Assembly (NCBI RefSeq): GCF_900167975.1
Contig: NZ_FUZU01000001.1
Location: 778,580-842,579 of the forward strand
Source of the DNA: Ohtaekwangia koreensis
Lineage (GTDB): Bacteria; Bacteroidota; Bacteroidia; Cytophagales; Cyclobacteriaceae
Direction: 5' to 3'
DNA length: 64,000 bases
Of this stretch, positions 16,972 through 60,113 are shown one piece after another (the stretch's first letter is position 1; each line of letters opens with the position of its first letter). The notes beneath the pieces were generated by a model. It did not search any database. It worked only from the letters and a program-made list of their open reading frames with translations, and was not told the origin of the DNA. The position numbers and the translations under genes were made by a program.

Positions 16972-16987
16972 GTGGAGCCGCAGAGAA
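16972..16987. repeat. attL: 16-bp direct repeat of the ssrA 3' end
   Basis: The sequence gtggagccgcagagaa is identical to 59,724-59,739, which covers the 3' acceptor-stem end and part of the T arm of ssrA. It is not followed here by the rest of the tmRNA. It marks the left junction of the integrated element. Confidence 0.85.
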
Positions 16988-19327: not shown

Positions 19328-20350
19328 TTACAAATTTTTTAAAAGATCAAATAAACCCAACTGTTTCGCAATGTCCTTGGTCAGTTTTGCTAATACTCGA
19401 TCACCTAATTTGTCTTGACGGATGTAGTTACCTATGACAAACTCAAGCACTTCTTCATTTGAACTAAAAAGAGGATTTCCTGCTTTTGTTCCAAACTCCT
19501 TAAGCTGTCTCAACTTCTCTTCATTATAGTAATATGACTTTCTGATTAATTCAACAACGTAATCTTTGTGCATATTACTTAAATCAATAATTCGAAATGT
19601 TTCCGCATTCTTTTGGGCTCTACCATAAAGCACCGTGTCAACAGTTGAGTCTTCCTCTTCTAAAAGAATATTGAAACTCTTCTTTTTTCCGTGTATGAAA
19701 TCAACAGCCGTAACATCAATTCTGAAACTCATTACATCATCACAATTATCAATATAAGGATGGAAGTTATCAGCTATATTAAAAACATCTGATCCTTTAA
19801 GGTTCGAATTGCAAATTGAACAGCTGGGAACTAGGTTATAGAAAGAAACAGCGAAGTAAGGGTTAGTACCTTTATCATAAAAATGATCGAATTGTGGTCT
19901 TGTCTTGTCCGTTTTCCCTTTGAGCGTGAATGTGTACTGCCTATTACAATATAAGCATACATTTGCACCTAACTTTTCTGCTAAATCGTAGGCATGCTTA
20001 CTTCTGGAAAATTTATCATAATCAAATATTCTCATTATCTCACTATTAAGAATCTTTCGAACAGCCTTCACTTGCTTTGGCGGTATACCTACTGTTCTTG
20101 CCGTAAGAATTGCCTCATAAAGGGGTGAAAGAATAGTTCGATGATTCTCTAATTCACTGGGCTTTTTTGTGATAATATCTCTGAGTCTAATGTGGACTTC
20201 ATTGTAGAAGGCCATCTCCGTTGGGGGCAGTCCAGAAGCTAACTTTGCTGCGAGAGCATTCTCGATACTAAATGGATTACCCTTCAATAGCCTGAAGTGC
20301 TGCTTAGCAAGTTTATCCAGTTCAGTTAGGCTCTTTCCAATTGTTATCAT
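19328..20350 (-). CDS. HNH endonuclease of a Septu-like system (PtuB-like)
   Basis: This 340-residue nuclease pairs with the ATPase encoded directly upstream; their genes overlap by 4 bases (ATGA). The HNH fold is marked by a zinc ribbon: Cys132-X2-Cys135 (CLYC) and Cys177-X2-Cys180 (CSIC). Between them are Asp155-His156 (RPQFDHFYDK) and Asn172 (NLVPS), and His197 lies in NFHPY. These are the ordered residues of PtuB-type HNH proteins. In Septu and related retron systems the ATPase binds the nuclease and licenses it during phage infection. The C-terminal third is helical without a known motif. No reverse transcriptase is nearby. Confidence 0.82.
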   Translation of the reverse strand: MITIGKSLTELDKLAKQHFRLLKGNPFSIENALAAKLASGLPPTEMAFYNEVHIRLRDIITKKPSELENHRTILSPLYEAILTARTVGIPPKQVKAVRKILNSEIMRIFDYDKFSRSKHAYDLAEKLGANVCLYCNRQYTFTLKGKTDKTRPQFDHFYDKGTNPYFAVSFYNLVPSCSICNSNLKGSDVFNIADNFHPYIDNCDDVMSFRIDVTAVDFIHGKKKSFNILLEEEDSTVDTVLYGRAQKNAETFRIIDLSNMHKDYVVELIRKSYYYNEEKLRQLKEFGTKAGNPLFSSNEEVLEFVIGNYIRQDKLGDRVLAKLTKDIAKQLGLFDLLKNL

Positions 20351-22236
20351 TTACTCGGCCTTTTTTTCTTCATAAGCTTCAATTCATTAATCTTCTTCTC
20401 TAACTCTTCAATTTCCTCATCAACACCAAACTCTCTTATCCATAGCTCTTTCAAACGATTTTTGATGACTGGTTCTCCGATTATTTCAATTATGTTTTTC
20501 ATTGACTGCAACTTGGAGATGTCCCGATTTTTATTCTTAATGAAACCGATCACTTCATTGATCTTTTTCTCTGCAAAGCTACCAACGAGGCCATTTTCTA
20601 GATAAAAGCTATTTGAAAGTAACGTGTGAATGTTTGATGCAAATGTTTCTTTTCTATCGTTATCTGGGTTCTGGGCAATTTGATACTGAACTCCGTCTTC
20701 TTGATTGAGCTTGTCCTTTCTAAGAAATAAAATGTTTGACTTTGGTAGATCAGAAGCTAGATATGGTGTGTTTGATGTTAAGATTAATTGAATCTTCCTC
20801 TTGCCAAAGTTCTTTGGTAGAAACGAAATCAAAAGCTCCAAATACTTCCTTTGCCACTCCGGATGAAAATAGACATCTCCTTCATCGATTAATATGAGCA
20901 AGTGATCCTTAAGTCTTAAGTTATGCGGGGCCTGACTGTCGGAGAGCGAGTGAAATCGGGAAAAAAGGGTGAGCATGGATTGCTCACCCGAACTTAATCC
21001 TCTCCAGTAGAATGTTAAAAAATCAGAAAAAGGACGTGCGTTTATGTATAGATTCAGGAATTTACCGATGTCGTCTTTGCCCTCAAAGGTAACATTAAGA
21101 ACTAAGGCTCCTCCATCGTCTGTTGGATGGAATGCGGTGTGTCTCCGAACAAGGTACTTAAACAAGAAGTCAACGAGATCAATGGAACTCTGTATAAAAG
21201 TATAGGCTTTGTCGCCTTCACGATCCTTCAAAATCTCCCTGAAGAAATTGAAGAAGAATTCCATAAAGCTATTCCCAGCGATTGATCTTAAGTACTCGCC
21301 CTCGGATTGAAAGCGAGGAAAATCTAAATTATTCTTAAAATAATTGAACAAAATGGCACGACAAATTCGGTTGATAAAAACTTGCCCTGATTCGTTGGAA
21401 ATCGAAAACTCACTTGCCTGACTATCTAAGAATTCCAGTAAGCGCTGTGCGCTCGATTCGACACGCTTCATTACATTTTTATCTTCCTCTAAGATCGTCA
21501 CCACTAATTCATTCGGAAGTTTAAAGTCTAGTTGTGATCGATTCTCGGTCGTAATGAATTGGATATTCCTACCGAGTTCCCTTACCTTATATGCATCGGT
21601 CTTGTCAATGGTGGCTTTGAATTCAGAAGCATAATTTTCATGGTCCTTATCTAAAATTGCAAGTGTAGATATATTATTGAATCTGTTTTCAGTGTCCTCC
21701 GTCACGGCTTCTTCGAGTGGAGGTTGTAGCTTTGATGAATACCTTAGATCAAAAATATTTGAGTAATAAATCACGGAACAATTATAGAAGGCTCGGATGT
21801 CCGGGTAAAAACTTAATGTACCAAGCTTTGACTCCTCTGAATTATGATCAATTTCAAACGTCTTGAAAACATTAGTTCGATCAATCAGTGGCAATTTCAA
21901 TCCGTTTACAAAATATATTTTTAGTGGATTTTTGTTGTCATCATGGTCTTTGATTGCAACAATACATCGACTCTTTATCCCCTGGCCAAACGCAAGCTCA
22001 TCTCTAATAAATTCCAGTATGTTAGATTTTCCAGTTCCATTTTGGCCAATTATGGCCGTGACATTTAAGATGTGCTTATTAACAAAGAAATTCTGAAGAG
22101 CAAATTTCTTTTGGTCTACCGAGATGCTTACTTCTTGATCTTCAATCGAAGTTGTGAATAGAAATTCATTACTGAAGTTAAAGCCTTCGCTTTTAAAATT
22201 TCGATACGCATCAACATATAAGTACAAGAGTTCCAT
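20347..22236 (-). CDS. AAA/ABC-type ATPase of a Septu-like system (PtuA-like)
   Basis: This SMC/RecF-like ATPase has about 629 residues. I prefer ATG 22,236 because the family starts MELLYLYVDAYRNF; the frame is open to 22,296. In residues counted from 22,296, Walker A GQNGTGKS is at 84-91, the ABC signature LSSGEQS at 434-440, and Walker B LLILIDEGD at 466-474, followed by the H-loop region IQLILTSNTPYL. The middle is helical insertion. The C-terminus is a Lys/Glu-rich helix. It overlaps the HNH gene by 4 bases. In Septu the ATPase forms a complex with the HNH nuclease and controls it by nucleotide level. A frameshifted small ORF lies just upstream. Confidence 0.85.
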   Translation of the reverse strand: MELLYLYVDAYRNFKSEGFNFSNEFLFTTSIEDQEVSISVDQKKFALQNFFVNKHILNVTAIIGQNGTGKSNILEFIRDELAFGQGIKSRCIVAIKDHDDNKNPLKIYFVNGLKLPLIDRTNVFKTFEIDHNSEESKLGTLSFYPDIRAFYNCSVIYYSNIFDLRYSSKLQPPLEEAVTEDTENRFNNISTLAILDKDHENYASEFKATIDKTDAYKVRELGRNIQFITTENRSQLDFKLPNELVVTILEEDKNVMKRVESSAQRLLEFLDSQASEFSISNESGQVFINRICRAILFNYFKNNLDFPRFQSEGEYLRSIAGNSFMEFFFNFFREILKDREGDKAYTFIQSSIDLVDFLFKYLVRRHTAFHPTDDGGALVLNVTFEGKDDIGKFLNLYINARPFSDFLTFYWRGLSSGEQSMLTLFSRFHSLSDSQAPHNLRLKDHLLILIDEGDVYFHPEWQRKYLELLISFLPKNFGKRKIQLILTSNTPYLASDLPKSNILFLRKDKLNQEDGVQYQIAQNPDNDRKETFASNIHTLLSNSFYLENGLVGSFAEKKINEVIGFIKNKNRDISKLQSMKNIIEIIGEPVIKNRLKELWIREFGVDEEIEELEKKINELKLMKKKRPSK

Positions 22237-22298
22237 ACTGATGAAAGTGGTGTAGTAGGTTCTAAAACTTGAAACTTCGAAAAACCCTGCCGACAATT

Positions 22299-23668: not shown

Positions 23669-24037
23669 ATGCTTGATAGTATGAAATTTATAAACTCACC
23701 TTATCCGCTTGTAAAGTTGCCGAATGATCTGCAACTGACATTATTTCTCATCAAAGAAGAGCTCAAAAGCCGCAAGTTCTTCAACACCCTTCAGCAGATG
23801 GGCCTAGATGACTGCTACTTCCAGCCGCACCTCGATACGCTCATTCTGCGAAGCCTGGATATGGATGATGAATTGGATTCCACCTTTGATGCCTATTATG
23901 AAATTATCGAACGCAGGAGCAAGAAGATTGATGCTGATAATGACTCCATCATGAAGCAAGCTTTGAAAGCGTACTACGAACTACTTGAGCAAAGGAAAAA
24001 ACTCAACGCTGTTAAGAAGGAAGCCAAGGTTTCATAG
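23669..24037 (+). CDS. hypothetical protein, first copy of a tandem paralogous pair
   Basis: The 122-residue (or 118 from ATG 23,681) helical protein contains DLQLTLFLIKEELKSRKFFNTLQQMGLDDCYFQPHLDTLIL. The next gene product has the same pattern (EQVTIYLIEQQLKCRRFFDDL, GLGPYDFEPNLDHLIL), so the two arose by tandem duplication. No enzyme motif, signal peptide or membrane segment is visible. I recognise no named family. The gene is first in a unit with the second copy (17-base gap) and a HEPN gene, and divergent from the HTH gene. Confidence 0.65.
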   Translation: MLDSMKFINSPYPLVKLPNDLQLTLFLIKEELKSRKFFNTLQQMGLDDCYFQPHLDTLILRSLDMDDELDSTFDAYYEIIERRSKKIDADNDSIMKQALKAYYELLEQRKKLNAVKKEAKVS

Positions 24038-24054
24038 AATCAAATCCTGTAGCC

Positions 24055-24390
24055 ATGTCAAAAAGTATTATATCCCTGATGAGGTTAGCCAGTCATGAAC
24101 AGGTAACGATCTACCTCATTGAACAGCAGCTAAAGTGCAGGAGGTTCTTTGATGACCTGGAGCATATCGGTTTAGGCCCCTATGATTTTGAACCCAACCT
24201 CGATCACCTCATCCTGAAAAATGTTGAGCTTGATGATGGCACCGATAAGACCTACAACCAGTATTCAAAAATTCTCGACAAACACAGCAAGCAAATGCAA
24301 CCCGAATTTCGGGCCATCGAAAGGCAGGCTGTAAAGATGTACAACGAGCTTATCGCATTGAATAAACCGAAGGCCACAAAAAGAAAATAG
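24055..24390 (+). CDS. hypothetical protein, second copy of the tandem pair
   Basis: This 111-residue helical protein is paralogous to the preceding gene product; the shared core is an IEQQLKxRRFFxxLxxxGLxxxxFxPxLDxLIL-like pattern. The C-terminus is Lys-rich (NKPKATKRK). It ends 2 bases before the HEPN gene start, which implies translational coupling. A role as partner or antitoxin of the HEPN protein is inference. Confidence 0.65.
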   Translation: MSKSIISLMRLASHEQVTIYLIEQQLKCRRFFDDLEHIGLGPYDFEPNLDHLILKNVELDDGTDKTYNQYSKILDKHSKQMQPEFRAIERQAVKMYNELIALNKPKATKRK

Positions 24391-24392
24391 GT

Positions 24393-25229
24393 ATGCGCCT
24401 GGCCGACATCACCACACCGGAATTCCGTTCTATCATTGATGGAATCGTAAGGGAAATATCTCCCGTTGCTGTAGTGTGTTTCGGGCATACTCTTTCGATA
24501 GTGAATTATACCAGTTGCTTCCAGGCAACAACATCAGAACATCATCACTATGACCTGCTGATAGTACAGTCCAACTCTAATCACTACAAAGATCACGAGA
24601 TCATCGATCTTGTTAAGAATGAATTCCCAGATGGTTTGTCGGTAAATGTATTGTCACATAGTGAACGATCTGTTCTTACTGCAATACAGCAACTTCATCC
24701 TTTCTTTTGTCGGGTGTTCCGCGAAGGTCATGTTTTGTACCTAGCAGTGAATAGCCCTATTAAGATGGATAAAATCAAAACAGTTGATGCAGATGTAGAT
24801 CAAAGCAAACTTGCCCAGGAATGTAAGCGTTCATTTGATCTCTCAGGAAATTTTCTGGCGATGGCCTCCGATGCGCTGGGCAGTCACCTTCACGATGTAG
24901 CAGTTTTTCTTCTTCACCAGTCAATGGAGCAAATGTGTATCGCTTCAATCAAAGCACATTTGAAATACCGCCCGACTACCCACAATCTTTCCAAACTGAT
25001 TGACCTAATAGGCTGCTATCTTCCCCAAGTAAAAAGCATATTTCCGTGCAACACGAATGACGAACAGCTAATGTTTGACTTTTTACGAAGGGCATACTCT
25101 GATGTGAGGTACAAGCTTAACTACCGGCTACCTCCACACATAGCATTTTCATTGTTGGAGCGCGTGAACGAATTCCAAAATCTTGTTGAGGATAAGTATA
25201 ATCTGGAATTTGTATGGCCGAAGGTTTAG
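24393..25229 (+). CDS. protein with degenerate nucleotidyltransferase-like N-terminus and C-terminal HEPN domain
   Basis: The product has 278 residues. The N-terminal 100 residues (VVCFGHTL, then HHYDLLIVQS, LSVNVLSHSE) follow the strand order of a minimal nucleotidyltransferase but lack its clear GS and DxD motifs. Residues from about 145 to 270 form a HEPN four-helix bundle: FLAMASDALGSHLHDVAVFLLHQSMEQM, PTTHNLSKLIDLI, FLRRAYSDVRYKLNY. HEPN proteins are often RNases in toxin-antitoxin and phage-defence units; an exact RxxxxH motif is not obvious here. It is the last gene of the unit starting at 23,669. Confidence 0.75.
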   Translation: MRLADITTPEFRSIIDGIVREISPVAVVCFGHTLSIVNYTSCFQATTSEHHHYDLLIVQSNSNHYKDHEIIDLVKNEFPDGLSVNVLSHSERSVLTAIQQLHPFFCRVFREGHVLYLAVNSPIKMDKIKTVDADVDQSKLAQECKRSFDLSGNFLAMASDALGSHLHDVAVFLLHQSMEQMCIASIKAHLKYRPTTHNLSKLIDLIGCYLPQVKSIFPCNTNDEQLMFDFLRRAYSDVRYKLNYRLPPHIAFSLLERVNEFQNLVEDKYNLEFVWPKV

Positions 25230-27788: not shown

Positions 27789-28433
27789 TTAGAATTGAGG
27801 TTTGGTTAGATAATAGTCCGTTATTGCCCCTAGATCTTTATAAAACAACTCAAGCTCTAAGAGAGTTATTGTACCAGGATTTCGCTCGGGCCATGGGTCT
27901 TGCACGTCGATCGTTCCATTATCGTGAAACCCATGAATGACAACGAAATGCCCATCGCCAGACCTCCATTCTATTCTTACACATACTAACCGTCCATTTG
28001 TTATCTGCTGCTTTATCAAATCAAACGAAGGTGCCCCTCCATGCATGCTTACAAAATTCCCGGTATATTTTAGGGGTTCATCTAAAGAAAATGGAGCGTC
28101 ACATTTTGTTAGGTCCGTACAACAGTCATCCCTTTTGAATGCTTGGTTTGCAAGTTTGCACTGTGTGAAGGTAGAGGAAGGATCGTAAAATTTTGAAACA
28201 CTGGAAGCGACAGCAGCCCAGCACAAATTGAGTGCTGCTTGCTTTTGAATCGTGAATGTCAACGTTTTAAAAAGAGAGCTGGAGGTTGTCGTATTGTTAT
28301 CAATGGCGACGTCTGTCACATCGGCTATCTCAACTTTTTCGTTGATGTGATACGATGTCTTTGAAAACTGCACATTTTGACCTTGAGCCAAATGGCATGC
28401 AAAAATGCATACTAGTAAAATTAGGTTTTTCAT
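27789..28433 (-). CDS. secreted papain-like cysteine protease, last gene of the giant-protein operon
   Basis: The 214-residue product has a signal peptide (cleavage near AQGQN). A papain-like catalytic set follows: Gln65 and Cys71 in KQAALNLCWAAVASSV, His162 in SGDGHFVVIHGF and Asp179 in DVQDPWP. This resembles the C39-like/AvrRpt2-type (C70) proteases that share a Q-x5-CW start. Cys92, 104, 105 and 111 may form disulfides. The gene lies 18 bases after the 1,384-residue gene, on the same strand and with the same spacing as between the two giant genes. It might mature or release the giant proteins; that is inference from position. Confidence 0.78.
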   Translation of the reverse strand: MKNLILLVCIFACHLAQGQNVQFSKTSYHINEKVEIADVTDVAIDNNTTTSSSLFKTLTFTIQKQAALNLCWAAVASSVSKFYDPSSTFTQCKLANQAFKRDDCCTDLTKCDAPFSLDEPLKYTGNFVSMHGGAPSFDLIKQQITNGRLVCVRIEWRSGDGHFVVIHGFHDNGTIDVQDPWPERNPGTITLLELELFYKDLGAITDYYLTKPQF

Positions 28434-28451
28434 ATTGGTTAGTGTTTTATT

Positions 28452-31400
28452 TTAGATCATTTCAAGGAGATTGCATGTAAGTACCAGACGCTTTCTAATA
28501 TCATTCACTGGATCACTTTCGTTGGTGGTGAATTCCTCTCCATCTTTGTTGAGTGCATGGTAGGTTTCGTACTCTTCGAGATAAATAGCATCTTCTCCAT
28601 CAGGAACGATGGTTACCATTGCTTCATTGATCAAATCTACCGGCCGGACATTTTGTTCGGTACTTTGGGCAACAAAGTTCAGGATCAAGGGAGTAACGGA
28701 ATCTTTGTTTCGTCGCACAGTTCTAACATAGAATTGATTCGCCGGAATGTTTTTAGACTTACCGCTTACAGTAAGTGCTCCATCCTTCGTGTTCCAAATG
28801 ATACTGCGGTCTGGGAATATCTGAACTTGTGGAGCCATGGCCACCTTGGAAAATCTAAAATCGTAACGATCTTTTAGCGTTATAGAATGTTCCTGGTATT
28901 TACATAGCGCGAGTTTCAAAAATGGCATGTACATGTCATCGGTTTGATTAGCTTTGATTTCTAGATCCGCGAAGAACAGTTTCTTGGTTGAGTCGAAGTG
29001 GACATCGAAGAGTGCCGCTGTTACTTTTACACCAGGACGTGTGTCAATATCTGATTCTTTCCTAGGATCAAAATTTAGCAGGGGTGCGTCAACTTGCGTG
29101 AAAACCGATTGCGTGAAAAACGTTTTCTTCAAACCTACAGATGGCTTGGATTCAAATGCAGGGTCCCTTCCAATTGATGAAACGAATCCTTCGAGGTCTT
29201 CACCTATGGTAAGGGCATCAGGAATAAACATCACTGCTAGTTTTTCTTCGGCACCAGATTCATACCAAGAGCCTTCAAGATATATCCTAAAATTTTGGTT
29301 GGTACGGGTTAGTCTACTTGGGCTTCCCTTTTCAAGGTTCCAATGGAGCAACGGAACAATGGAATGGACGACAGGTGCTTTAAGTTTTTTGGAGTTCTTC
29401 ACAATCTGTTTTTGCTCCAATTCCCTTCGATAAATGAAATGTTCTGCATCTTCTTTTTCAGGGAAGAATTGCCTGAATCTGGAATGACCCTCTAGTTTGT
29501 AGGTGACTTCTCGAAACTTTGTGTCGTTAAATGAATGAGATAACCAACGGTCTTGGCCGAGCAGCGGGCTCTCCATAAATGATTTCACTCGCTCCCCACC
29601 ATACTTCAGAGGCGATAGCGGCGGTGGCGGCGTGACTATGCGACTTTGAACGGGCTCATTTCTGGCAATTTCGAAATTTGCTTCCCTGAGATTTTTGAAA
29701 GTTTTGACTTTGATAATTTCAACTGGGTCATAACCTTTTTCACTATTAAGATTGATCACGAAGTCTGTGTACTTCATGGTTAGAACAATTTCTGAAGAGG
29801 AAGAGAAAGGAAATACTACGCTTTCATCGGGTACTTTAAAAAGAACGTCGACGTTAAGGTCGCCTTCATATTTTCTATCGCCCCGTGTCGAAATGTCTAT
29901 TCCAGGATACGCATGTGGATTAACGACTTTGGTTAAGGGTAACCGGTCAAGAACTTGTAGTTTAAGTTTCCTTAGATCGGGGCAATATAAAATCGGCCTT
30001 TTTACTGCATGTATAGCAAATATTTTTTTGATAGTCTTCAGCGCGTTTGTAGTGTCGCAAAAAATGTCCTTGTAGGCATCCTTAAGGTGATCGACAGAAA
30101 CTGTTATTGATACTTCACCGATCGTACCTGGCCTGAGGTTTACGTTGACGGTATGCGCATCGTATTCTGGGTGAGTTGTTGGATGTCGATGAATTGAATT
30201 CAAATATTTGTCCTTGCATTCGAGCACTATACGTTTGAAAGTTTGATCAAGGTAATTGGGTTCAAATTCAAGCGTGGCACTAGCGGTTCCAAGGTCGGCC
30301 CCGTCTCCATAACATTCCGGCTCCCAAACGAGCTCACCATCTTCCAGCCTGTTCAATATTTTCATCGTCATTCGAACTTTGCTGTACACGGGATCTGTTA
30401 TAAATGGAATCTTGTCGCCCATCTGAAAATGTTCGATTTTATAATTCTTTGGCGCTTCGTATGCAGCGCGTGTATATATTTCGCGGCGTAAATGCTTGTT
30501 GTGTAATAGCGAATCGAACTCACCATGGATTTCAGCAAAATGAACCGATATTCGGGGCGGTGAAATACTGCGTTCAGATGTCGCACGTGTATAGCGGGTC
30601 GTTCGTGTATCAATAATTTTGGTATCCATCATTTCACCACTGGACCGGATGATCATCACGTCTGCACTTTCTCCTAAATACCGATCCTTGATACAATAAA
30701 CTTCTGATATGTGCTCGCGGGGATTCTCAGAATCAAATTTTATTGCTTTATGGTATGCCCTATCACAGAAATAGAATTGTACCGGACCTACGCGTTCAAT
30801 ACGTCTATATGGTTTCTTCGTATTAATGTCCAGTTCAGGATGACTACCCTCCGTTTTCATTTTAACAGTGTTACCACAGATGTCGACCACCCGAATTCGA
30901 AATGTGTAACCTCGACCAAAGCGTAGCGGCAATAGTGAACCTACTGGGGGCCTGTTATCGATTAGCTCAAGGTCGTTATATTCCCAAAAGCCTTCTTTTA
31001 TTTTTTCATCTTGAACATGATTGCCGATTTGCGGGCAAACAAGGCTCCAGTTATTCCATCGACATATTTCTTCATTGATATATAACTTTCCTGATTTACC
31101 AGCAACGGCAACTTCGCTAATCCAGCCTTCATCTTTATAGTCCTTGAGAATAGTTTCGCGTTTATCGGATGAGGTTTTTTTACTTCTGTCTACCGTATAT
31201 GTGGCAATGCGCTCTGACAGCGATTTGAAATTATTCTTCCCTAGGTTACTCACTTCGATCACATAACCACTGTCAAGGTGATGGCCAAAAATTACGTAGT
31301 CATCTATGTTGGACGAAGCATTGTCGTAGGTATTGATTTTAATAGGTTTATTATTTTGTTCATCAATTGTGACTTGACCAGGAGGATCGTTTGGCGCTAG

Positions 31401-32606
31401 GAGATTCTTAAGTCGAAGGGTGAGTCCTTCTGAGGTTCCGTTATCGTCAGCGATTGCAGGCGCCGGATTCAACAAGTCACTGAGTGCAGCATAATTGCGC
31501 GTAGTCACTTCGGGGTTGTCTGGCAAACGGTTAGCCATTTTCTTTAGGCTTTTTGCGCGATTAAATTGCTCCGATACGATTTCATAAAAGGGTTTACCAT
31601 TAACCATGGGTCCAGCGGCGTGTATGTATCCATTTTCAACTATGAAATAGTTCTGACTAAGCATCTCGGAATATTTAATCGAGAATTGTTTTGAGCCTTT
31701 ATTGAAATGAAAATATGTCCATGGGGTTTTGAAGTCGATCTCATCGATAAAGTTCTTCCATTTATCGGTTTCTAGATTTTTGGGTAGGTTATCTATTCCT
31801 GTAATTTTGATTAGGTTATTTTTACAAAGCGCTGGACCTTCGTTGTCGCACTTGTTATCTTCCTTACAGTAGCCATCTGGGCCGAGCGCTATTTTGAAGT
31901 CCAAGATCCATCCAGTTGCCCGGAGAAGATGAGGATAGGTTGCTAAAATTGACATCCTCTTATGAAATTCTTGATTCTCTTTGTTACGCAGGATAATCTC
32001 ATCTTCCTCCATTCGATTCTCACTAATATCCTCTTCCGCAGTAGCGTGGCTTACTTCCGGAATAATTTGAATTGGAGGTGCCTCTGGAAGACATTGTTCT
32101 TGCGTGAATGTTGTACCTGCTCCATGAGTCTTGGAATTATACACTCGGAGTGATTTTTCTTTTAGCGCGCCCTCATCGAACTCCCAACCACGCACGGGTG
32201 TATTGTCGTTAAATAAACACGTCCACAGCTCTTTCGTGTCGTCGATGATCGGGTAGGATTTTGGCAGATCATCCATACAGTCGCCACGGGTAGCACCCGT
32301 CGGCTGTGCTTTTTTTAAACTTTCGAGAATAGATCCGTCAAATTCAATATCAAGGTAATCTTTGTCTTTGACCACCGTTCGATATTCCCTGGTTCCTTGA
32401 TTGTAGGAAATGCAACAGAAGGATGCTTTGAGGTTTGCATGGGATTTAAAAAATTCAATGAAATCGTACCAACGCGCGATTTCAAAATAGTCTTTCAGGA
32501 TACCATTTTGTGGTAGTCGTGGGGAAAGGAAAACCGAAAAATATGCGTGGGTTTCGTCGACACGCTTCGGGGTAATCGTGCAGATGATGGTCGTGTTTTT
32601 GGCCAT
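28452..32606 (-). CDS. giant 1,384-residue protein of unknown function
   Basis: No signal peptide or membrane segment is visible. The start contains YFSVFLSPRLPQNGILKDYF (about 22-41). The middle is mostly beta-rich, with a GRGYTFRIRVVDICGN motif and charged linkers (ATAEEDISENRMEEDE), and a proline run PPPPLSP near 992. The last 280 residues hold LEGSWYESGAEEKLAVMFIP at about 1,110 and MYMPFLKLALCKYQEHS at about 1,230. These N- and C-terminal patterns give me an unaided impression of giant uncharacterised proteins in other phyla that occur next to a second giant protein, as here; I know no function for them. It starts 18 bases after the 1,675-residue gene. No enzymatic motif was found. Confidence 0.7.
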   Translation of the reverse strand: MAKNTTIICTITPKRVDETHAYFSVFLSPRLPQNGILKDYFEIARWYDFIEFFKSHANLKASFCCISYNQGTREYRTVVKDKDYLDIEFDGSILESLKKAQPTGATRGDCMDDLPKSYPIIDDTKELWTCLFNDNTPVRGWEFDEGALKEKSLRVYNSKTHGAGTTFTQEQCLPEAPPIQIIPEVSHATAEEDISENRMEEDEIILRNKENQEFHKRMSILATYPHLLRATGWILDFKIALGPDGYCKEDNKCDNEGPALCKNNLIKITGIDNLPKNLETDKWKNFIDEIDFKTPWTYFHFNKGSKQFSIKYSEMLSQNYFIVENGYIHAAGPMVNGKPFYEIVSEQFNRAKSLKKMANRLPDNPEVTTRNYAALSDLLNPAPAIADDNGTSEGLTLRLKNLLAPNDPPGQVTIDEQNNKPIKINTYDNASSNIDDYVIFGHHLDSGYVIEVSNLGKNNFKSLSERIATYTVDRSKKTSSDKRETILKDYKDEGWISEVAVAGKSGKLYINEEICRWNNWSLVCPQIGNHVQDEKIKEGFWEYNDLELIDNRPPVGSLLPLRFGRGYTFRIRVVDICGNTVKMKTEGSHPELDINTKKPYRRIERVGPVQFYFCDRAYHKAIKFDSENPREHISEVYCIKDRYLGESADVMIIRSSGEMMDTKIIDTRTTRYTRATSERSISPPRISVHFAEIHGEFDSLLHNKHLRREIYTRAAYEAPKNYKIEHFQMGDKIPFITDPVYSKVRMTMKILNRLEDGELVWEPECYGDGADLGTASATLEFEPNYLDQTFKRIVLECKDKYLNSIHRHPTTHPEYDAHTVNVNLRPGTIGEVSITVSVDHLKDAYKDIFCDTTNALKTIKKIFAIHAVKRPILYCPDLRKLKLQVLDRLPLTKVVNPHAYPGIDISTRGDRKYEGDLNVDVLFKVPDESVVFPFSSSSEIVLTMKYTDFVINLNSEKGYDPVEIIKVKTFKNLREANFEIARNEPVQSRIVTPPPPLSPLKYGGERVKSFMESPLLGQDRWLSHSFNDTKFREVTYKLEGHSRFRQFFPEKEDAEHFIYRRELEQKQIVKNSKKLKAPVVHSIVPLLHWNLEKGSPSRLTRTNQNFRIYLEGSWYESGAEEKLAVMFIPDALTIGEDLEGFVSSIGRDPAFESKPSVGLKKTFFTQSVFTQVDAPLLNFDPRKESDIDTRPGVKVTAALFDVHFDSTKKLFFADLEIKANQTDDMYMPFLKLALCKYQEHSITLKDRYDFRFSKVAMAPQVQIFPDRSIIWNTKDGALTVSGKSKNIPANQFYVRTVRRNKDSVTPLILNFVAQSTEQNVRPVDLINEAMVTIVPDGEDAIYLEEYETYHALNKDGEEFTTNESDPVNDIRKRLVLTCNLLEMI

Positions 32607-32624
32607 GATGTGGGTTGTTGAGGT

Positions 32625-35600
32625 TTATTGGTGGAGGTCAAAGGTGCAGCAATATTCTTCCCATAGCTTGGGCGAGAAGGTTGTAGCAAATGAATTGCTC
32701 TTTTCTTGTTCTACTTCTGTCGTTGATTTGACTGGATCATCGTCTTCGATGATTAAATACTCAGCGGGTTCGTCCTTGGTCGATGCATAAGGGCTTTCTG
32801 AATTGATCTGCAAGATTGAAGCTTGGCTGTCTTGCGGTGGCGCCACACCTTTTGCGCCCATGATTTGCTTACTGAAACTAATGCCGAAAGATGTTCTGAA
32901 GAAACCGATCTTGATAGAGTACGTAAGTGAAGCAGACCCGTACAAAGCAGCCTGACCATCTACACGGCGATAGGTCATCGCTAACTCGACAGTCAGGTAA
33001 ATTGAGATGAAACCGAAAACAGTTACGCCCCCCTGGCAGATAACATAACCGACTAGCGTAAGATCACCCGAGCGTTCATAGATCAAGCGAATACCTGCGA
33101 AGAGAAATACATATCCCGAAGCTATACCTAAGTTTATCCCGATGTAGCCACCGAATTCGATGGCAGCATCTATTTTCTCTAAGCTATGCGGAGAAGCCGT
33201 CATCGTGAAATGCCCGCGTCCGCCGAATATGCCAGCGGAAATTAGAAACTTATTATTAGCACGATTTATTCCGACGTCGAACAGCATTGCTTTGACTGAC
33301 GTCGCATTGGCATACGGGATTCTAACAGCGACATCAAACGACATATTTGTAAAATTGAAAGCGGGCGAGGATATTCCGGGAATTGGAAAAGCATACCCTA
33401 CTTCGAGCTGATTGAATGACGGAAGAATTCTAAGCCCACTCCCTGGCATTTTGATTTTTTCGGCTAGCGCTGCAAAAAAATCTAAGGGTCCCCCGAAGGA
33501 GACGCTATCGATCTTAACATTTACCTTTTTAGGATTGGACGGATTCGACTTGATCTCAAATTCTTTAAACTTTATTGACAGGATGGGCTCCGACGCCAGT
33601 TTTATTGCCAAGCGAAAAGCAGTCAGTTTTACGAACGACTCATACGATCGGTCTTTAATGTTTTTATTCAAATAAACCTGGAGTTGGGTTGCTGTGTCGG
33701 TGGTGAAAGCGAATAATCCAAAGTCCTTACTTTTAAGCTTCTTTGTTATAAAATTATAGGTGATGGCATCTTTGGAGGGTGAGAGTCTTGGTAATTCGAA
33801 ATCCAATCCGAGAATGTCTTTGAGGGTTATGCTTCCGAAAAGTTTTGCCTCAAGCGATTTAAAATATGTTTCTGGACTAAATGAACGGATGTCGTTCCAT
33901 TGCTCCTTAGCCTGCTGCCCAATTAGTACCAAGTCGTCAACTAATGGCAGGGATCGTACCTTATCTTTGTATGTTTTAAGTTTGTCACGATATTCCTTCT
34001 CCAGTTCTTCCGCTTTTTCTCTGGCCAAATGTTCGACATTCTTCAATGCGTCGCGAGCCTGCTTAACATCATTTTTAATTTGTTCGAGTCCACGCATAGC
34101 ATCTTTCAGAGCATCCTTTGCGTCCGGGGGGATGAGTTCGTCGGCAATTTTCTTGGGATCGCGTAAGTAGGATAGCAACTCAGTAGGCAACTCCGGGTTT
34201 ATTATCCCACCCAGCTCTTCGGAGATGTTTCTTATTTTGCCCTCGATTTTCGCTCTCGATGAATCTTTGATTTCAGCGAATACTCGAGATACATTCTTTT
34301 TAGTTTCGAGCTTGTAAAGATCGACCTGGTTAGTCACATAATCCTTTGCATAGTTAATTCCTACCGCTACTTCTTCGTTGACAAGTTTGCAGACAGCCGG
34401 AATGTATACGGAGGCTTGCTTAAGTTCTGGGATACTTGCATACTGATGAAAAAAATCAATAACCTTCTTTTGCAATTCGATGCCACCTACTATAATGGGA
34501 ATCGATTTTTCTTTTAAGACGCCACTCAAGACTATGAAATCGGTTTCCAAGGCCGACAATTCCTCGTTAATGAAGTCGTCGACCTCGTCATCAATTTGAT
34601 TGATCGCATAACCGATCTTGGATCGATAAGTAAGGATTGCATTCTTGATGTTGAGTGCATTTTCATTGATGGCAGTGTCGACGGAGGTGACAAAGTTTAA
34701 CACATTATCATAAGCTTCACGGAGATTGGGCGGCATTTCAACTGTGACGAATGGTCTCACGAATCCAAAGGATGCGTCTAAAAAACTGTTTACAATTTTT
34801 GCGCGGAGCAGTTCAAGTTCGTCGACAAAAATTTTGGCCATTGGATTTTGGAAATAGGGATTGAACTTTTGAACGATTTCGTCCAGTTCAATTTTGATTT
34901 CATTGTATCCAATGCTAAGTGACGTTCCTTCCTCCAGAAAAGATTTCAATTTTACTATGAATGCGGGATCCATTAGTTCTTTTTTTGGATCAGCAATCTT
35001 GGCGCGTAGGATTCTGCATTTGCTCAATATACACTCGCTAGTTTCCTGAAATTCTTCTAGCAACTTATAGTAAAGGGCGAGGGAGGCCTGAGCACCTTGG
35101 GCAATTTGACCGCGCAGATCGCGAAGTGAAATCTCTATTTTTGAAAGATCCGACCGGATTTGGGTTTCAGCCGCTAAAAAATTGTCGTATTTGGATTTTA
35201 TTTCTGACTGCCACTGCGTTGGCAGAGCAGCTCGCGAGGAGATTGAATTAAGACTTTCGGTGAATTTCTTAAGCTCTGTTGGAGTCAAAAGTAATTCAAG
35301 CGCACTTTTTTGAGTTTCTAATTCAGCTGCTGTTTCAGTTTTATATATGTTATCGATTTCCGTTAGCAGTAGTTGCGCTCCTCCTTGCATATAATTGTTT
35401 ATGGCTTCAGCGGTTGCCGCCGTCGAAATGCGTCGCGAAATAGCTGTCAAGCGAGTTAGAATTGGCTCGAGATTGGTCAACGCCTGATTGATTGCTTTCT
35501 TTACAACAACTGGAACGTTCCTGGGGAACTTAGACACTTCTGTTCGGACATCTGAAATGTCGGTCGTCAGTTTTTCTTTTGCCTGCTTGTACTCTAGATT

Positions 35601-37652
35601 GAATCGTAGTAAATCATTGAAGGTTCCCTTAATGGTTGTATTCAGCTTTGTTTCAAGATCCGCTTTCTGCGACTCAAGGTTCCGAATTCCATCGTCGGCG
35701 TTTCCACTTTCTTGTGTGACATATTTTTTGAATTCGTCCTTATGCTGTTCGAGCAGCTTCAAAAATTTATCCTGCGCTGATGTGAAGATGTTTTCGAATT
35801 CGACCAAGTTGCTGAAAAGTTTTTCCTGGAGTTGACTTACCCCTCGCAAGCAAACGTCTTTCAAGCTCTTGAGCTGTTCGCTCATGGTGTATTTGAATTT
35901 GTCTGCCTCCGACAAATTGGTTACTAACACAAGTGTCTCGTTGAAGCTCGAGTTGATCTTACCGATTACTTTTTCATAGTCATCGGTTCCGCTGTCAAAG
36001 AATTTATTAATGATTTCTATATCCAGCTCGCCTGGGGCCAGAGCAACATTAGGGTTGGGAAATCTTTGTTCAATACCGCAGGTAATGGCTTGAATTGATT
36101 TTCTGACTTTGTGCTTCTGTTCGTGCCAATCGGTTACCTCGAACTGGAAGGTAAGTGGTGTTTCATTGTTGGTTTGTCGGTCCAAAAAGTGCGGATAGAA
36201 AACGCCCTCCCACTCGCAGTCTATCTTGACGATATTAGCATTTGCATTTGTGCCACCCGGTGGCGTTTCATAGAAGCAATTGTCTAGTGGGATAATCCGC
36301 TTGGGGTCGGTTTCTAGAAAACGGACCTTTCGAAATGGCCCATTGAACTTCGAAGTTTCTAAGGAGTCGACGTGATGTTGATAGTCCTTTTCAATCTCAA
36401 GTGGCATAACGTATTCTCTATAATCGAGAAAAGACAATCCGTCGGTTGTTCTACGTTTCGTCGTCTTGATTAAAAGCATTTTTAATCCTGTCTCTTTTTC
36501 AAGGATTACCCTGCTTACTTCGACTTCTTCATCGCGGCCAAAAGAGATAAGGTGTTTATATGTATAAAGGTCTATCTTTTGACTATCTGGTAGCTGACTA
36601 GTGCCATTGACTTTTGTATTCTTGAAATCTAGAAATGTCGATATACCTAAAGAAGAGAATGCTAATTTGTCTGCGCGTGCCAACAATTTATGTGTGATGT
36701 AGAGGGATACAAGATGCTGCCTGTTCTTGGCTGTGGGCAAAAAATGAGAAAGGGCACCGACTTCTGGAGAATAATGCGGGTGATCAGGTGAGCCAATAAA
36801 CATCACGTCCATTTTCTGAAAGACTTCGTCCAAGTCGGTTTCGGCTTGGTTTTCCCCGCTAACTGGCGGCGATTTCTTTTTTGTTTTTATTTCAGGTAGA
36901 GGAACAATTGTAAGGGTAGCTAACCATAGTTCGGTGTGATTATTTTTTGCAAGAGTATTGGAGAATTCCCAATTGAAACGAAATCTATTTTGGTCGGGCA
37001 GTCGCGGGCTAATCACAAGGCGCCAGGGCGCTTCGATGGCAGTGATTGGATCGCCATCCATTTTTGGAACGTAGTCAGGATTGTAGCCATGTTCGTAGGT
37101 TGGGATGTAGCCCATGGGATACGAATTCTCTAGGAAGTGTTCGCCTTCCTTAGGTTGAATTCGGTTGGCGAAAATTGACTCGTCGAATTTGGGTTTGATC
37201 ACCAGTTGGAATTTGGAGCTGTTCCAGTTCAATAGCTCTTTTTCATTCAGATCAATCGTTACTTCGTTCTTCTCGTAGAACATGACGCGAAAGACCAGAT
37301 AACTATAACCCGCTATAAATGTTTGCGCTGTCCATGTTGGTATTGGCTGAACATCACTCGTATTGACGCTTTGTTCCGCGATATGTTGTTGGGGAAGTTT
37401 TACAATCATGTAAGGCTCCGGTTGGTCGTAGGTTGCAACCAAAGAATTTCCTGCCTTTTTAAAATTGACAAAGTAGAAGTCAAGGTTCAAAAGACTTCGC
37501 CAAAGCGTCAGTCTATACCCGTACTTGACAAAAACATGAGTCAGGGGCGGAGGAACATTAAGGATTTGGGATAGTGCATTAATCACGGGTGCAAGGCCGA
37601 GGGTTGTTAGCGAAGATTTTTTGATAAAATCTCTCCTTGAAAGGGGCTTCAT
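32625..37652 (-). CDS. giant 1,675-residue Tat-signal coiled-coil protein of unknown function
   Basis: This is the first gene of the three-gene operon. The N-terminus SRRDFIKKSSLTTLGLAPV (5-23) is a twin-arginine (Tat) export signal. Residues about 30-550 are beta-rich (FRFNWEFSNTLAKN, TDWHEQKHKVRKS). About 560-1,250 is almost entirely helical, with long Lys/Glu/Leu-rich coiled coils. From about 1,297 a beta domain follows, including SFGGPLDFFAALAEKIKMPG, a Gly-rich stretch EFGGYIGINLGIASGYVF near 1,497 and LTYSIKIGFFRTSFGISFSKQ close to the end. The plan (exported, coiled-coil stalk, beta ends) suggests a large structural or delivery protein. No known domain could be named. Confidence 0.72.
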   Translation of the reverse strand: MKPLSRRDFIKKSSLTTLGLAPVINALSQILNVPPPLTHVFVKYGYRLTLWRSLLNLDFYFVNFKKAGNSLVATYDQPEPYMIVKLPQQHIAEQSVNTSDVQPIPTWTAQTFIAGYSYLVFRVMFYEKNEVTIDLNEKELLNWNSSKFQLVIKPKFDESIFANRIQPKEGEHFLENSYPMGYIPTYEHGYNPDYVPKMDGDPITAIEAPWRLVISPRLPDQNRFRFNWEFSNTLAKNNHTELWLATLTIVPLPEIKTKKKSPPVSGENQAETDLDEVFQKMDVMFIGSPDHPHYSPEVGALSHFLPTAKNRQHLVSLYITHKLLARADKLAFSSLGISTFLDFKNTKVNGTSQLPDSQKIDLYTYKHLISFGRDEEVEVSRVILEKETGLKMLLIKTTKRRTTDGLSFLDYREYVMPLEIEKDYQHHVDSLETSKFNGPFRKVRFLETDPKRIIPLDNCFYETPPGGTNANANIVKIDCEWEGVFYPHFLDRQTNNETPLTFQFEVTDWHEQKHKVRKSIQAITCGIEQRFPNPNVALAPGELDIEIINKFFDSGTDDYEKVIGKINSSFNETLVLVTNLSEADKFKYTMSEQLKSLKDVCLRGVSQLQEKLFSNLVEFENIFTSAQDKFLKLLEQHKDEFKKYVTQESGNADDGIRNLESQKADLETKLNTTIKGTFNDLLRFNLEYKQAKEKLTTDISDVRTEVSKFPRNVPVVVKKAINQALTNLEPILTRLTAISRRISTAATAEAINNYMQGGAQLLLTEIDNIYKTETAAELETQKSALELLLTPTELKKFTESLNSISSRAALPTQWQSEIKSKYDNFLAAETQIRSDLSKIEISLRDLRGQIAQGAQASLALYYKLLEEFQETSECILSKCRILRAKIADPKKELMDPAFIVKLKSFLEEGTSLSIGYNEIKIELDEIVQKFNPYFQNPMAKIFVDELELLRAKIVNSFLDASFGFVRPFVTVEMPPNLREAYDNVLNFVTSVDTAINENALNIKNAILTYRSKIGYAINQIDDEVDDFINEELSALETDFIVLSGVLKEKSIPIIVGGIELQKKVIDFFHQYASIPELKQASVYIPAVCKLVNEEVAVGINYAKDYVTNQVDLYKLETKKNVSRVFAEIKDSSRAKIEGKIRNISEELGGIINPELPTELLSYLRDPKKIADELIPPDAKDALKDAMRGLEQIKNDVKQARDALKNVEHLAREKAEELEKEYRDKLKTYKDKVRSLPLVDDLVLIGQQAKEQWNDIRSFSPETYFKSLEAKLFGSITLKDILGLDFELPRLSPSKDAITYNFITKKLKSKDFGLFAFTTDTATQLQVYLNKNIKDRSYESFVKLTAFRLAIKLASEPILSIKFKEFEIKSNPSNPKKVNVKIDSVSFGGPLDFFAALAEKIKMPGSGLRILPSFNQLEVGYAFPIPGISSPAFNFTNMSFDVAVRIPYANATSVKAMLFDVGINRANNKFLISAGIFGGRGHFTMTASPHSLEKIDAAIEFGGYIGINLGIASGYVFLFAGIRLIYERSGDLTLVGYVICQGGVTVFGFISIYLTVELAMTYRRVDGQAALYGSASLTYSIKIGFFRTSFGISFSKQIMGAKGVAPPQDSQASILQINSESPYASTKDEPAEYLIIEDDDPVKSTTEVEQEKSNSFATTFSPKLWEEYCCTFDLHQ

Positions 37653-41698: not shown

Positions 41699-42874
41699 CT
41701 AATACCCGCGCTTGCGCTTCTTACGTCTTCGTCTTCCGTGATAGCTATCCGTAGATATTCCAGCGTTGCCATTATTGCTATGCTCTGAGCTAATGTTTGT
41801 AGAATTGATCAATCCGTTCCAGATCGTTTCTTTTAATCCTTCTGCTATGTCATTTGATTTGTGATCGTTTGCATGTGTGATTTTATATACTTGCCCGAGT
41901 GTGAGCTGTCTATTTGTAGATTTTGTTGTAGCAGACAATGGTGGTGCATTAATTGAAGGTGGTACTGCCAATTGCCCGGTTAGATTAATTTCAGTAGTGC
42001 TCTTTGAAGTTGCCTCCCCCGAAGTATATTCTGATTTTCGTTGTGTGTCGTTATTCTTAAAAGGAAGACTCCTTGTCCGAGCATTTGCTTGCATTATACT
42101 TTCACGATCTCTTTCCAAATCGTAATTGATACTATTTTTTAAACTTGACCATTTATAGTCATTACCTAAACTTCCGCCTTTGAATAGCATGCCTTGATAG
42201 CCAAAAGATATACCACTGATATAACCCGTGGTAGCCTGGTTAAACAGAACGTTAATTCCGCGTTTTTCGAGAGCTACTATAAATTGATCGGTCGTAAGTT
42301 TCTGCTTGAGGATGTCTTTTAATTGAACCTGTAATTTTGCTTTTACGGAAGGCACTTTCGTACGTTTCATCATTTCTAATTCATCATGAGTGACTGCTCG
42401 CTCCTTGGTATATTTACTGGAAGGCACTTGGCGAAGTCCATGCTTCACCTCGAGCTGGCGAAGGATCTGCTCTGCTTTTGCATAATCATTGCTATCCGAT
42501 ACTACACTTCCGTCAAAGCCAATTCGATTGACTAACAGATGTATATGCGGGTGCTCCGCATCATGATGTCGAAAAAGTATATACTGATGTTGGGTGAATC
42601 CGCTTTCATGCAAAAAGTCTTTTGCAATCGCTGTTAATTTCTGGTCTGAAAGATTCTCGTCAGGAGGGAAGTTTAGCGAAGTGTGATAAAAGTATCTACT
42701 TAAACCGGGGCGTAGCATACGCACCAGGAATATTTCTTTCATTATGGCATTTTCCTCGACACTACTAAAATTCGTATCGAGCACTTTAGCTCCCTTCGTC
42801 CGCACTTTCTCCAGGTTATACAGGAGCGCTCCCCGAAAGCTTTTACCCTTCACCAGATCCGCGGTCATGGACAA
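41699..42874 (-). CDS. MobB/BtgB-type relaxase (MOBP-like)
   Basis: The 391-residue protein nicks oriT and leads DNA transfer. Its N-terminal relaxase domain has a likely catalytic Tyr19 (GALLYNLEK), the RHHDAEHPHIHLLVNRI motif at 102-118 with the metal-binding His108, His110 and His112, and the following LRQLEVKHGL. The C-terminus is basic (GRRRRKKRKRGY). The start overlaps mobC by 32 bases. No type IV secretion genes or coupling protein are seen in the window, so transfer would need a helper element. Confidence 0.88.
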   Translation of the reverse strand: MSMTADLVKGKSFRGALLYNLEKVRTKGAKVLDTNFSSVEENAIMKEIFLVRMLRPGLSRYFYHTSLNFPPDENLSDQKLTAIAKDFLHESGFTQHQYILFRHHDAEHPHIHLLVNRIGFDGSVVSDSNDYAKAEQILRQLEVKHGLRQVPSSKYTKERAVTHDELEMMKRTKVPSVKAKLQVQLKDILKQKLTTDQFIVALEKRGINVLFNQATTGYISGISFGYQGMLFKGGSLGNDYKWSSLKNSINYDLERDRESIMQANARTRSLPFKNNDTQRKSEYTSGEATSKSTTEINLTGQLAVPPSINAPPLSATTKSTNRQLTLGQVYKITHANDHKSNDIAEGLKETIWNGLINSTNISSEHSNNGNAGISTDSYHGRRRRKKRKRGY

Positions 42875-43199
42875 GAATTTTAATGGTATACTTTAGCAGA
42901 TCTGAAAGCTCTTGGACTACCGGCCGGAGCTCAGACGGGAATTCATTACTATTGAATTTATGGGCAACCTGGTTAACGTTTATACCGATGCGTTGTAACT
43001 CCCTGAATATAGCGGCATCGAGTGGCGATGCTTTGGCTTGCGGAAATTTACCGGTGAATATTTTATAGCGTATCCAGTTGGCAGGTGAAAGCCCGGCACT
43101 CTGGGCAAATGTATTCACCTGATCATACTCATTTTGCGTGAGCCGGATGTTTACCTGAACAACACGTTTCTTATCTTCACTTAATGCTGGTCGTGCCAT
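42843..43199 (-). CDS. mobC: MobC-type relaxosome accessory protein
   Basis: The 118-residue ribbon-helix-helix-like protein contains VVQVNIRLTQNEYDQVNTFA and AGLSPANWIRYKIF, then the MobC helix FRELQRIGINVNQVAHKFN. It binds oriT and helps the relaxase to nick. Its gene precedes and overlaps the relaxase gene; the candidate oriT lies 55-103 bases upstream. Confidence 0.88.
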   Translation of the reverse strand: MARPALSEDKKRVVQVNIRLTQNEYDQVNTFAQSAGLSPANWIRYKIFTGKFPQAKASPLDAAIFRELQRIGINVNQVAHKFNSNEFPSELRPVVQELSDLLKYTIKILVHDRGSGEG

Positions 43200-58269: not shown

Positions 58270-59487
58270 TTAAACCTCCCGCTGCATACGGTATTTAAGT
58301 GCTTTCATGTCTTCACTGATTTTAATATCTACAATTTTTGCATAGTGTTGTGTCGTCTTCAGATTTCGGTGACCAAGCATTTTACTAACAGTTTCAATCG
58401 GTACACCGTTCGTGAGTGTCACTGTAGTGGCAAACGTATGTCTCGCTGTGTGATAGGTCATTTTTTTATTTATACTGCATATTGTTGCAATCTCATGCAG
58501 ATACTCATTCATCTTTTGATTACTTAATATAGGGAGTGCTCTATTTTTGACTATACATGCGGGATGGCCTTTATACTTGGCTAAAATAGCCATGGCAGTT
58601 GGTAGTAGTGGTATACGTGATGCCGCCTCCGTTTTTTGTCGCGTAGTGATAATCCACTTTTCACCGTCTATGCCTGTAACAATTTCGTTATAGGTCAACT
58701 TTTGCGTGTCGATATATGCAAGGCCGGTATAGCAGCTGAATAGAAATATATCTCGTACCTGACGTAGTCTTTCACTTGAAAAATCTTTTGCATGTAGTAT
58801 ATCAAGCTCTGCGCTTGTCAGGTAGGGACGTTGAGTGTCCTCTTTTATCATCTTATGAGCAGCGAATGGATTGCGGAGAAGCCATCCATTTTTAGTACAT
58901 ATATGAATGATCTTTTTGAAGTTTGTAAGATACTTTACGGTGCTGTTTTGGTTGCACTTCTTTTTTGTTTTAAGCCAAAATTCAAAGTCTGTTATGAACT
59001 TATACTTGATATCTTCGATAGCTATATCTGTTTTGTTATATAGTTCACGAATAAAATTAGCAGTATGATCAAACGTTGTTAGATACTTTTTATAGGTGGC
59101 TAACGAATACTGTATGTTGATTAGTGCTTTTATCTGTTCGTTGTGTTCCTTAAATATACCCAGTAGCATTTTTGATGGCTCTTTGACACCGAACCATAGT
59201 TTGCCAAACACATCTTTTGTTATTTCTTGATTCGTTAGAAGCAGTGTCTTTTGGATATCATACACTTTGGCGCGTAACGCATCCAGTAAGTTGTTTAACT
59301 CTTTTGCCTCTTTGTTGTTGCTAATAACTCGACAGCTTTTTTGAGACCATTTAGCTGGGTCTACTGTATAGGAAGTAGCTGTTTCAAAACGATCTCCGCT
59401 GACTGTTACTCGCATATAGATCGGATCTGATCCGAAGCGATTAGTCTTTGACTTTCTTAAGTAGAATAGAACTTTAATGCTTGCCAT
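58270..59487 (-). CDS. tyrosine recombinase (integrase) of the ssrA element
   Basis: This 405-residue integrase has an arm-binding N-terminus (VLFYLRKSKTNRFGSDPIYM), a SAM-like core-binding domain (LATYKKYLTTFDHTANFIRE) and a catalytic domain. FLFSCYTGLAYIDTQKL is the family form around the first Arg position. TYHTARHTF gives His346 and Arg349, LGHRNLKTTQHYAKI gives His373 and Tyr382, the nucleophile. It lies 237 bases from the 3' end of ssrA, the typical place for an enzyme that uses this attachment site. An inverted repeat lies 41 bases upstream of the start. Confidence 0.92.
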   Translation of the reverse strand: MASIKVLFYLRKSKTNRFGSDPIYMRVTVSGDRFETATSYTVDPAKWSQKSCRVISNNKEAKELNNLLDALRAKVYDIQKTLLLTNQEITKDVFGKLWFGVKEPSKMLLGIFKEHNEQIKALINIQYSLATYKKYLTTFDHTANFIRELYNKTDIAIEDIKYKFITDFEFWLKTKKKCNQNSTVKYLTNFKKIIHICTKNGWLLRNPFAAHKMIKEDTQRPYLTSAELDILHAKDFSSERLRQVRDIFLFSCYTGLAYIDTQKLTYNEIVTGIDGEKWIITTRQKTEAASRIPLLPTAMAILAKYKGHPACIVKNRALPILSNQKMNEYLHEIATICSINKKMTYHTARHTFATTVTLTNGVPIETVSKMLGHRNLKTTQHYAKIVDIKISEDMKALKYRMQREV

Positions 59488-59723: not shown

Positions 59724-59739
59724 GTGGAGCCGCAGAGAA
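59724..59739. repeat. attR: 16-bp direct repeat inside the ssrA 3' end
   Basis: The sequence gtggagccgcagagaa is identical to 16,972-16,987. It covers the 3' acceptor strand and part of the T arm of tmRNA. Confidence 0.85.
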
Positions 59740-60113
59740 TCGAACTCTGGTCCAGAGAAGAAGAACTCATACCTTCTACATGCTTAGTTGACTTTAATTG
59801 TCGGGAGTAGCAAGGCAGGCAACAGCCAAACTACACCTTAGTTACTGTGTCTTAGCCGCGCTTAGCAACATCGCGCGGAGCAGTTCTGCATAACGACACC
59901 GCTAACCAGCACCTGCAAAACGACAGTGCTGAGCGATGATGGCTTTCCCGATCTTATCGGGACGAGGCGTAACTTAGCGAATCGCTAAATTAAGCAGCCA
60001 TGGCGTAGTTAGACTCGCCAAGTATGATTCAGGACTATCTTTCAAGGCTCTCATCCTATGAGCCTGCATGCTTCTATACGACCTCAAACATCCTGTCAAA
60101 ACCGGTCGGCCCC
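59725..60113 (-). ncRNA. ssrA: transfer-messenger RNA (tmRNA)
   Basis: The 5' end GGGGCCGACCGGTTTTGACAGG-type start is at 60,113, and the 3' strand CGGCTCCA at 59,725 pairs with it; CCA is not encoded. The T arm has the GTTCGATTC loop. The tag frame at 60,019-59,990 reads GGC GAG TCT AAC TAC GCC ATG GCT GCT TAA, that is GESNYAMAA followed by a stop, a Bacteroidota-type degradation tag. It frees stalled ribosomes together with SmpB. The gene stays complete although the element has inserted at its 3' end. Confidence 0.95.

Follow-up and report, generated by a model that had tools for sequence, protein, structure and literature searches.

The window, a stretch of 64,000 nucleotides from Ohtaekwangia koreensis, carries on its minus strand three genes, here called A, B and C, which follow each other with intergenic gaps of 18 bp, at the positions given in an earlier note on this DNA. 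Gene A (32625..37652) encodes a giant protein of 1,675 residues (189.8 kDa) with a Tat signal whose twin arginine occupies positions 6-7. Gene B (28452..32606) encodes a second giant of 1,384 residues (159.0 kDa) without a signal peptide, and gene C (27789..28433) a papain-like protease of 214 residues (23.9 kDa) of the Peptidase_C70 / C39_2 type. The A-B gap (32607..32624) and the B-C gap (28434..28451), both read on the minus strand, are equal in length but unlike in sequence. Chance is excluded as an explanation for this arrangement because relatives of A and B adjoin in dozens of genomes.

Sequence searches in Pfam, NCBIfam, PHROGs and PDB returned no convincing match for either giant protein. 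The earlier note had proposed an undescribed system and had named strong profile matches to a characterised system as a reason to abandon that view; these libraries yielded none. Likewise, no description of the pair was found in the literature searched, which covers few subscription papers. As far as these family libraries and this literature reach, the system is thus undescribed, and the searches run filed neither A nor B in a known family.

Protein A comprises a conserved N-terminal region (residues ~3-521), a variable insert (~522-984) and a conserved C-terminal region (~985-1673) ending in an amphipathic beta-meander. The long coiled coil that had been proposed for A finds support in the composition of the 463-residue insert 522-984, which is richer in leucine and glutamate and poorer in proline and glycine than the rest of the protein, but a rough coiled-coil score flags residues 645-675 and 1177-1235 only. 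A weak match of the insert to an apolipoprotein family (E 0.0011) stayed under the cut-off. An AlphaFold2 model of a complete A relative of 1,112 residues (64 rows; pLDDT 81.3, pTM 0.70) has a beta-rich N-terminal region and a run of long strands towards the C-terminus, and between residues 905 and 1087 nearly all strands present one hydrophobic and one polar face. This relative is without most of the insert 522-984, and its model agrees with the beta ends attributed to A earlier. Foldseek comparison of the model with the PDB gave weak matches to LptD, SlpA, microsomal triglyceride transfer protein, apolipoprotein B, porins and ushers, with TM-scores of 0.31 or less among the matches listed; comparison with BFVD gave one viral tail-fibre model, also a weak match (E 5.6e-4). 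Beyond a predicted beta-meander nothing is claimed about the fold of A. Residues 200-1384 of B were modelled with modest confidence (78 rows; pLDDT 71.1, pTM 0.59). Weak likeness of this model to the FN3 regions of insulin-receptor-family ectodomains and of cytokine subunits in the PDB tentatively suggests that B may be a chain of fibronectin-III-like domains.

The mobile element and its defence genes

The operon rides on an integrated mobilisable element of ~42.8 kb that resides in a tmRNA gene. On the left, a 16-bp direct repeat of the tmRNA 3′ end (16972..16987, plus strand) marks the probable attachment site. The right copy (59724..59739, plus strand) coincides with the 3′ end of the tmRNA gene itself (59724-60113, minus strand), and beside it lies the tyrosine integrase gene of the element (58270..59487, minus strand). 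Relaxase and NikA/MobC-like mobilisation genes are located at 41699..43199 (minus strand), and the element also encodes a ParA-like ATPase and a Toprim/zinc-ribbon primase-like protein. Integrase, mobilisation genes and repeats thus confirm the mobile setting that had been described for the operon. The same is true of the defence neighbours reported with it: matches within the element identify Kiwa (KwaB, 3.6e-87; KwaA, 8.5e-22) and a short-Argonaute pair (pAgo_I, 1.7e-132; REase-PNTD, 1e-54), which we take to be of the SPARDA type. These systems share the mobile element with A-B but have no component in common with the pair, which elsewhere occurs without them.

Further genes of the element deserve mention. 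A PDC-M62A/B candidate defence pair is found on its left side (19328-22296; 4.9e-130 and 3.3e-85), and a small run of three genes, the last of which encodes a HEPN-domain protein, lies opposite to Kiwa (23669-25229). Near the integrase, a 2,316-residue protein with DUF6443, Ig-like and laminin-G domains (47864-54814) and a 938-residue protein with an RHS repeat match (55246-58062) are encoded, possibly the parts of one RHS-type gene, for a surface protein or a toxin, that has been split.

Conservation of the pair and the changing third gene

What is conserved is the unit of A and B. In 81 of 87 loci the strand of B also encodes an A relative, in 78 of them within 200 bp of B or overlapping it, where some overlaps come from miscalled starts and contig ends truncate some of the A pieces. 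In three of the 81 loci the distance is about 2 kb, with an A-like open reading frame of 714-718 residues in between in L081 and L091. In the six loci without A, B begins no more than 276 bp from the contig start. Homologous pairs without any conserved context had been put forward as a second ground for rejection; here the A-B pair is itself the conserved context.

Relatives of B were found in one of seven genomes of the genus, in 6 of 295 genomes of the family (E up to 1e-3), in 18 of 395 genomes of the phylum (own genome counted; 1e-10), in 6 of 246 genomes of an Actinomycetota set (centre counted) and in 7 of 72,556 plasmid records. Of 324 candidate stretches in genome contigs, 285 proved to encode a B relative, and the best 80 were kept. 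The 78 B rows obtained from these best 80 (B longer than 1,000 residues, plus the window) spread over 14 phylum-level groups, six rows falling into none, which bears out the earlier impression of giant pairs in other phyla. Wide transfer of the pair was considered and dropped, because a B tree, made by a quick method that gave long-branch warnings, mostly follows the phyla (18 changes versus 48.1 in shuffles). A and B as phage or viral structural proteins were likewise rejected, with no relatives of either protein in 50,697 phage records and none of B in viral contigs.

A plasmid search with A returned 15 records, seven of which had already been found with B. Thirteen of the 15 were looked at; five further records (L142-L146) have a B-like next gene, and in one (L141) the large next gene has no match to B. 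Plasmid-borne A of Sinorhizobium, Agrobacterium, Rhizobium and Ruegeria reaches 3,043-3,311 residues. The 3,311-residue form, on a Ruegeria plasmid (L145), has a gene for a zinc-dependent phospholipase C upstream and one for an M35 metallo-endopeptidase downstream, and on an A. vitis plasmid (L144), where B is annotated as two open reading frames, the pair adjoins dpd genes. DNA photolyase accounts for 5 of 123 neighbouring proteins scanned.

Protein C scores above the cut-off of both Pfam models, Peptidase_C70 (31.8 bits, cut-off 19) and Peptidase_C39_2 (30.5 bits, cut-off 24), and its residues C71, H162 and D179, assigned by eye, presumably are the papain-like Cys-His-Asp/Asn active-site positions. 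In contrast to the C70 family member AvrRpt2, C has an N-terminus that by eye resembles a Sec signal and sits in a giant-pair operon, with no tested link to type III secretion. It matched no PADLOC model. A C70-type protease, with an N-terminus that looks lipoprotein-like by eye, also follows B in Mangrovivirga, and in the B tree the proteins of the window and of Mangrovivirga make up a clade of their own (SH-aLRT 100) that excludes the ten other Bacteroidota rows. Between these two proteases blastp gives no match, and a profile of the two sequences, limited in sensitivity, detected no third protease among 4,044 open reading frames of 107 loci. The three-gene system of the earlier note was therefore not upheld, as such a protease was found beside A-B in only 2 of the 107 loci, that of the window and the one most closely related to it. 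Judged by sequence, C is an accessory outside the conserved core of A and B.

At other loci the next gene is glycosidase-like or esterase-like (esterase-like in L068), a patatin-like gene lies near the R. ruizarguesonis TP23 pair, and many pairs are without a co-directional third gene within 200 bp. In loci of Balneolota, Rhodothermota and Chlorobiota-like genomes (L123-L125, L128-L132, L045, L070), two secreted-looking proteins are encoded next to the pair: X1, of ~620-710 residues and barrel-like by eye, and X2, which has a PPPNQL motif and, by eye, is sometimes fused to RCC1-like repeats. The X1 and X2 proteins scanned matched no Pfam or NCBIfam family. TANFOR polymorphic toxins are large secreted proteins of Bacteroidota-type bacteria (PMC7073777), in which they can be likened to A-B, and X2 of Chlorobiota-like genomes was considered as a candidate. 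The TANFOR model matched neither A nor B nor any X2 protein scanned, and X2 as a TANFOR toxin was rejected.

Twin-arginine signals and TatA neighbours

Protein A starts with MKPLSRRDFIKKSSLTTLGLAPVINAL, where SRRDFIKK precedes a hydrophobic stretch. The Tat signal ascribed to it earlier is canonical by eye and scores 15.8 bits against the NCBIfam Tat-signal model, just under the cut-off of 16.7. Of 70 A proteins with 850 residues or more, about 27 carry a twin-arginine signal by eye, a count for which the 26 hits of a strict script were reduced by two (a miscalled start and an internal match) and supplemented by three that it had missed. The signal is also present in each of the four giant A proteins (3,043-3,311 residues) from alphaproteobacterial plasmids. 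The remaining 43 of the 70 are without it by eye; some of their starts are miscalled, and many are clearly signal-less.

In 5 of 107 loci, a gene of the TatA/B/E family lies 10-297 bp from the pair, and all five products score above the cut-off of Pfam PF02416. These loci belong to S. meliloti pC, where the gene is annotated as tatA, to Lentzea fradiae and, in three cases, to the Armatimonadota clade. Each of the five TatA-flanked A proteins carries a twin-arginine signal. A profile built from the five TatA genes matches them by construction, so that the rest of the loci serve as control, and no other TatA-like match in the 107 loci was better than E 0.68. The probability of finding all five within 500 bp of the pair by chance is 3e-6 if they are independent; three of the loci are related, which weakens the figure to ~5e-4 for three events. 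The host genome encodes TatC and two TatA proteins elsewhere and has no TatA gene beside the pair in the window.

None of 87 B proteins has a strongly hydrophobic N-terminus, a check that is weaker for GC-rich loci, where N-termini may be miscalled. A peptidoglycan (PG)-binding-type segment is found within B in four Streptomyces loci. PG_binding_1 and PDZ_2 were each matched by a single one of 11 B proteins (by eye those of S. nigrescens and Mangrovivirga), and PG_binding_1 is also the commonest family among the neighbours (6 of 123 scanned). PG-binding and PDZ domains are usually extracytoplasmic, and their occurrence in B thus suits co-export with A.

By its RR motif and hydrophobic stretch A resembles a Tat substrate, whereas its mass of 189.8 kDa is above the maximum of 150 kDa that PMC6708511 gives for Tat cargo. 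The S. meliloti protein, at 331 kDa, surpasses it further. With A at 190 kDa and B at 159 kDa, passage through the Tat translocon either conflicts with or extends what is known of this route. As to B, a signal-less partner encoded beside a signal-bearing subunit is the arrangement of Tat hitchhiker complexes such as PaoABC, which likewise combine an RR-signal subunit with a signal-less partner from adjacent genes. However, PaoABC-type complexes are enzymes of ordinary size, whereas A and B are two giants without a family match, and five A-B loci bring their own TatA; co-export of A and B is inferred.

Proposed export of the pair and alternative readings

From the observed pairing, its breadth, the signals, the TatA neighbours and the domain insertions, we infer that A and B bind each other and leave the cytoplasm together, and also the place and task of their complex. 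Our best explanation, whose chance of being right we put somewhat below even, is that the two giants A and B form a complex which is exported by Tat, associates with the envelope and is joined by accessory enzymes that change. The firmer half of this reading is the export of those A forms that bear a signal. A would fold in the cytoplasm and then bind B, and its twin-arginine signal would carry both through the Tat translocon, with B as hitchhiker; some lineages would supply their own TatA for this purpose. Outside, in the periplasm, the wall or at the outer surface, the two proteins may build a beta-rich assembly, to which B would contribute a chain of FN3/Ig-like domains and A its beta-rich N-terminal part, a stalk that varies in length and the amphipathic C-terminal beta-meander. 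Exported accessory enzymes would be added lineage by lineage. The C70-type protease of the window might then act outside the cytoplasm, either on the complex during maturation or on a bound target. Against export by Tat it counts that A by itself is heavier than the quoted cargo limit, that all 15 A proteins of the main Pseudomonadota clade are among those without a signal, that TatA neighbours are rare and that three of the five occur in one clade. More far-reaching, and to our minds doubtful, is the view that A-B is a new export-and-assembly machine of at least 350 kDa that leaves the cell folded via Tat, with a dedicated TatA in some lineages, and forms an envelope structure with lineage-specific enzymes. 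If this were true, the known size ceiling of Tat would be broken.

The absence of an export signal from all 15 A proteins of the main Pseudomonadota clade of the tree and from several actinobacterial ones would also fit a giant cytoplasmic complex that is exported in some lineages only and has a core task unrelated to the envelope. This is unlikely, however, in view of the TatA neighbours in three lineages and the PG-binding and PDZ segments within some B proteins.

Somewhat less probable still, A-B-C could be an anti-phage defence operon carried along with the Kiwa, SPARDA-type and PDC-M62 genes, acting for instance as an envelope-level barrier or as a sensor that frees the protease. Location alone argues for this role, which the earlier note had raised: in the window the operon lies between Kiwa and the SPARDA-type pair on one mobile element, the A. 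vitis pair adjoins dpd genes, and restriction genes are near the pair on R. ruizarguesonis p3. Its patchy presence, as in one of seven genomes of the genus, would also suit defence. However, the protease lacks conservation, the loci looked at are for the most part ordinary stretches of chromosome, and only a handful of the 123 neighbours scanned (of 179 chosen, in locus order, without a background) matched PADLOC models at 1e-15.

A stable giant pair with shifting third genes, namely a protease in the window and Mangrovivirga, an esterase-like gene in L068 and a patatin-like gene near TP23, might likewise indicate a secreted carrier of toxins or effectors with the variable third gene as cargo. 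The Pfam name of C70 makes it the family of AvrRpt2, which is an injected effector. Yet such a carrier seems improbable, because neither the protease of the window, with its Sec-type signal, nor that of Mangrovivirga, with its lipoprotein-like one (both by eye), needs one, many pairs have no third gene in the same direction nearby, no immunity-like partner was recognised, and known delivery proteins were not matched. A lipid-handling machine, in which the amphipathic meander of A would hold lipid on a scaffold of B, is the least probable reading, as the two-faced strands 905-1087, the weak Foldseek matches to LptD, microsomal triglyceride transfer protein and apolipoprotein B and the sub-threshold apolipoprotein match in the insert are offset by TM-scores no higher than 0.31 among the matches listed, by porins, SlpA and ushers matching equally well, by the fact that such alternation is common to all beta-sheets with a hydrophobic core, and by the lack of a consistent lipid gene next to the pair.

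In summary, A-B marks a real annotation gap, a very large and widely conserved pair that goes without a family name in Pfam, NCBIfam and PHROGs, and in the window it travels on a mobilisable element together with defence genes. If the pair is indeed exported by Tat, it would represent a natural cargo well over the 150 kDa quoted as the limit, to which some genomes add a matching TatA, and it would become directly testable what sets the upper size of Tat cargo and what role extra TatA copies have.
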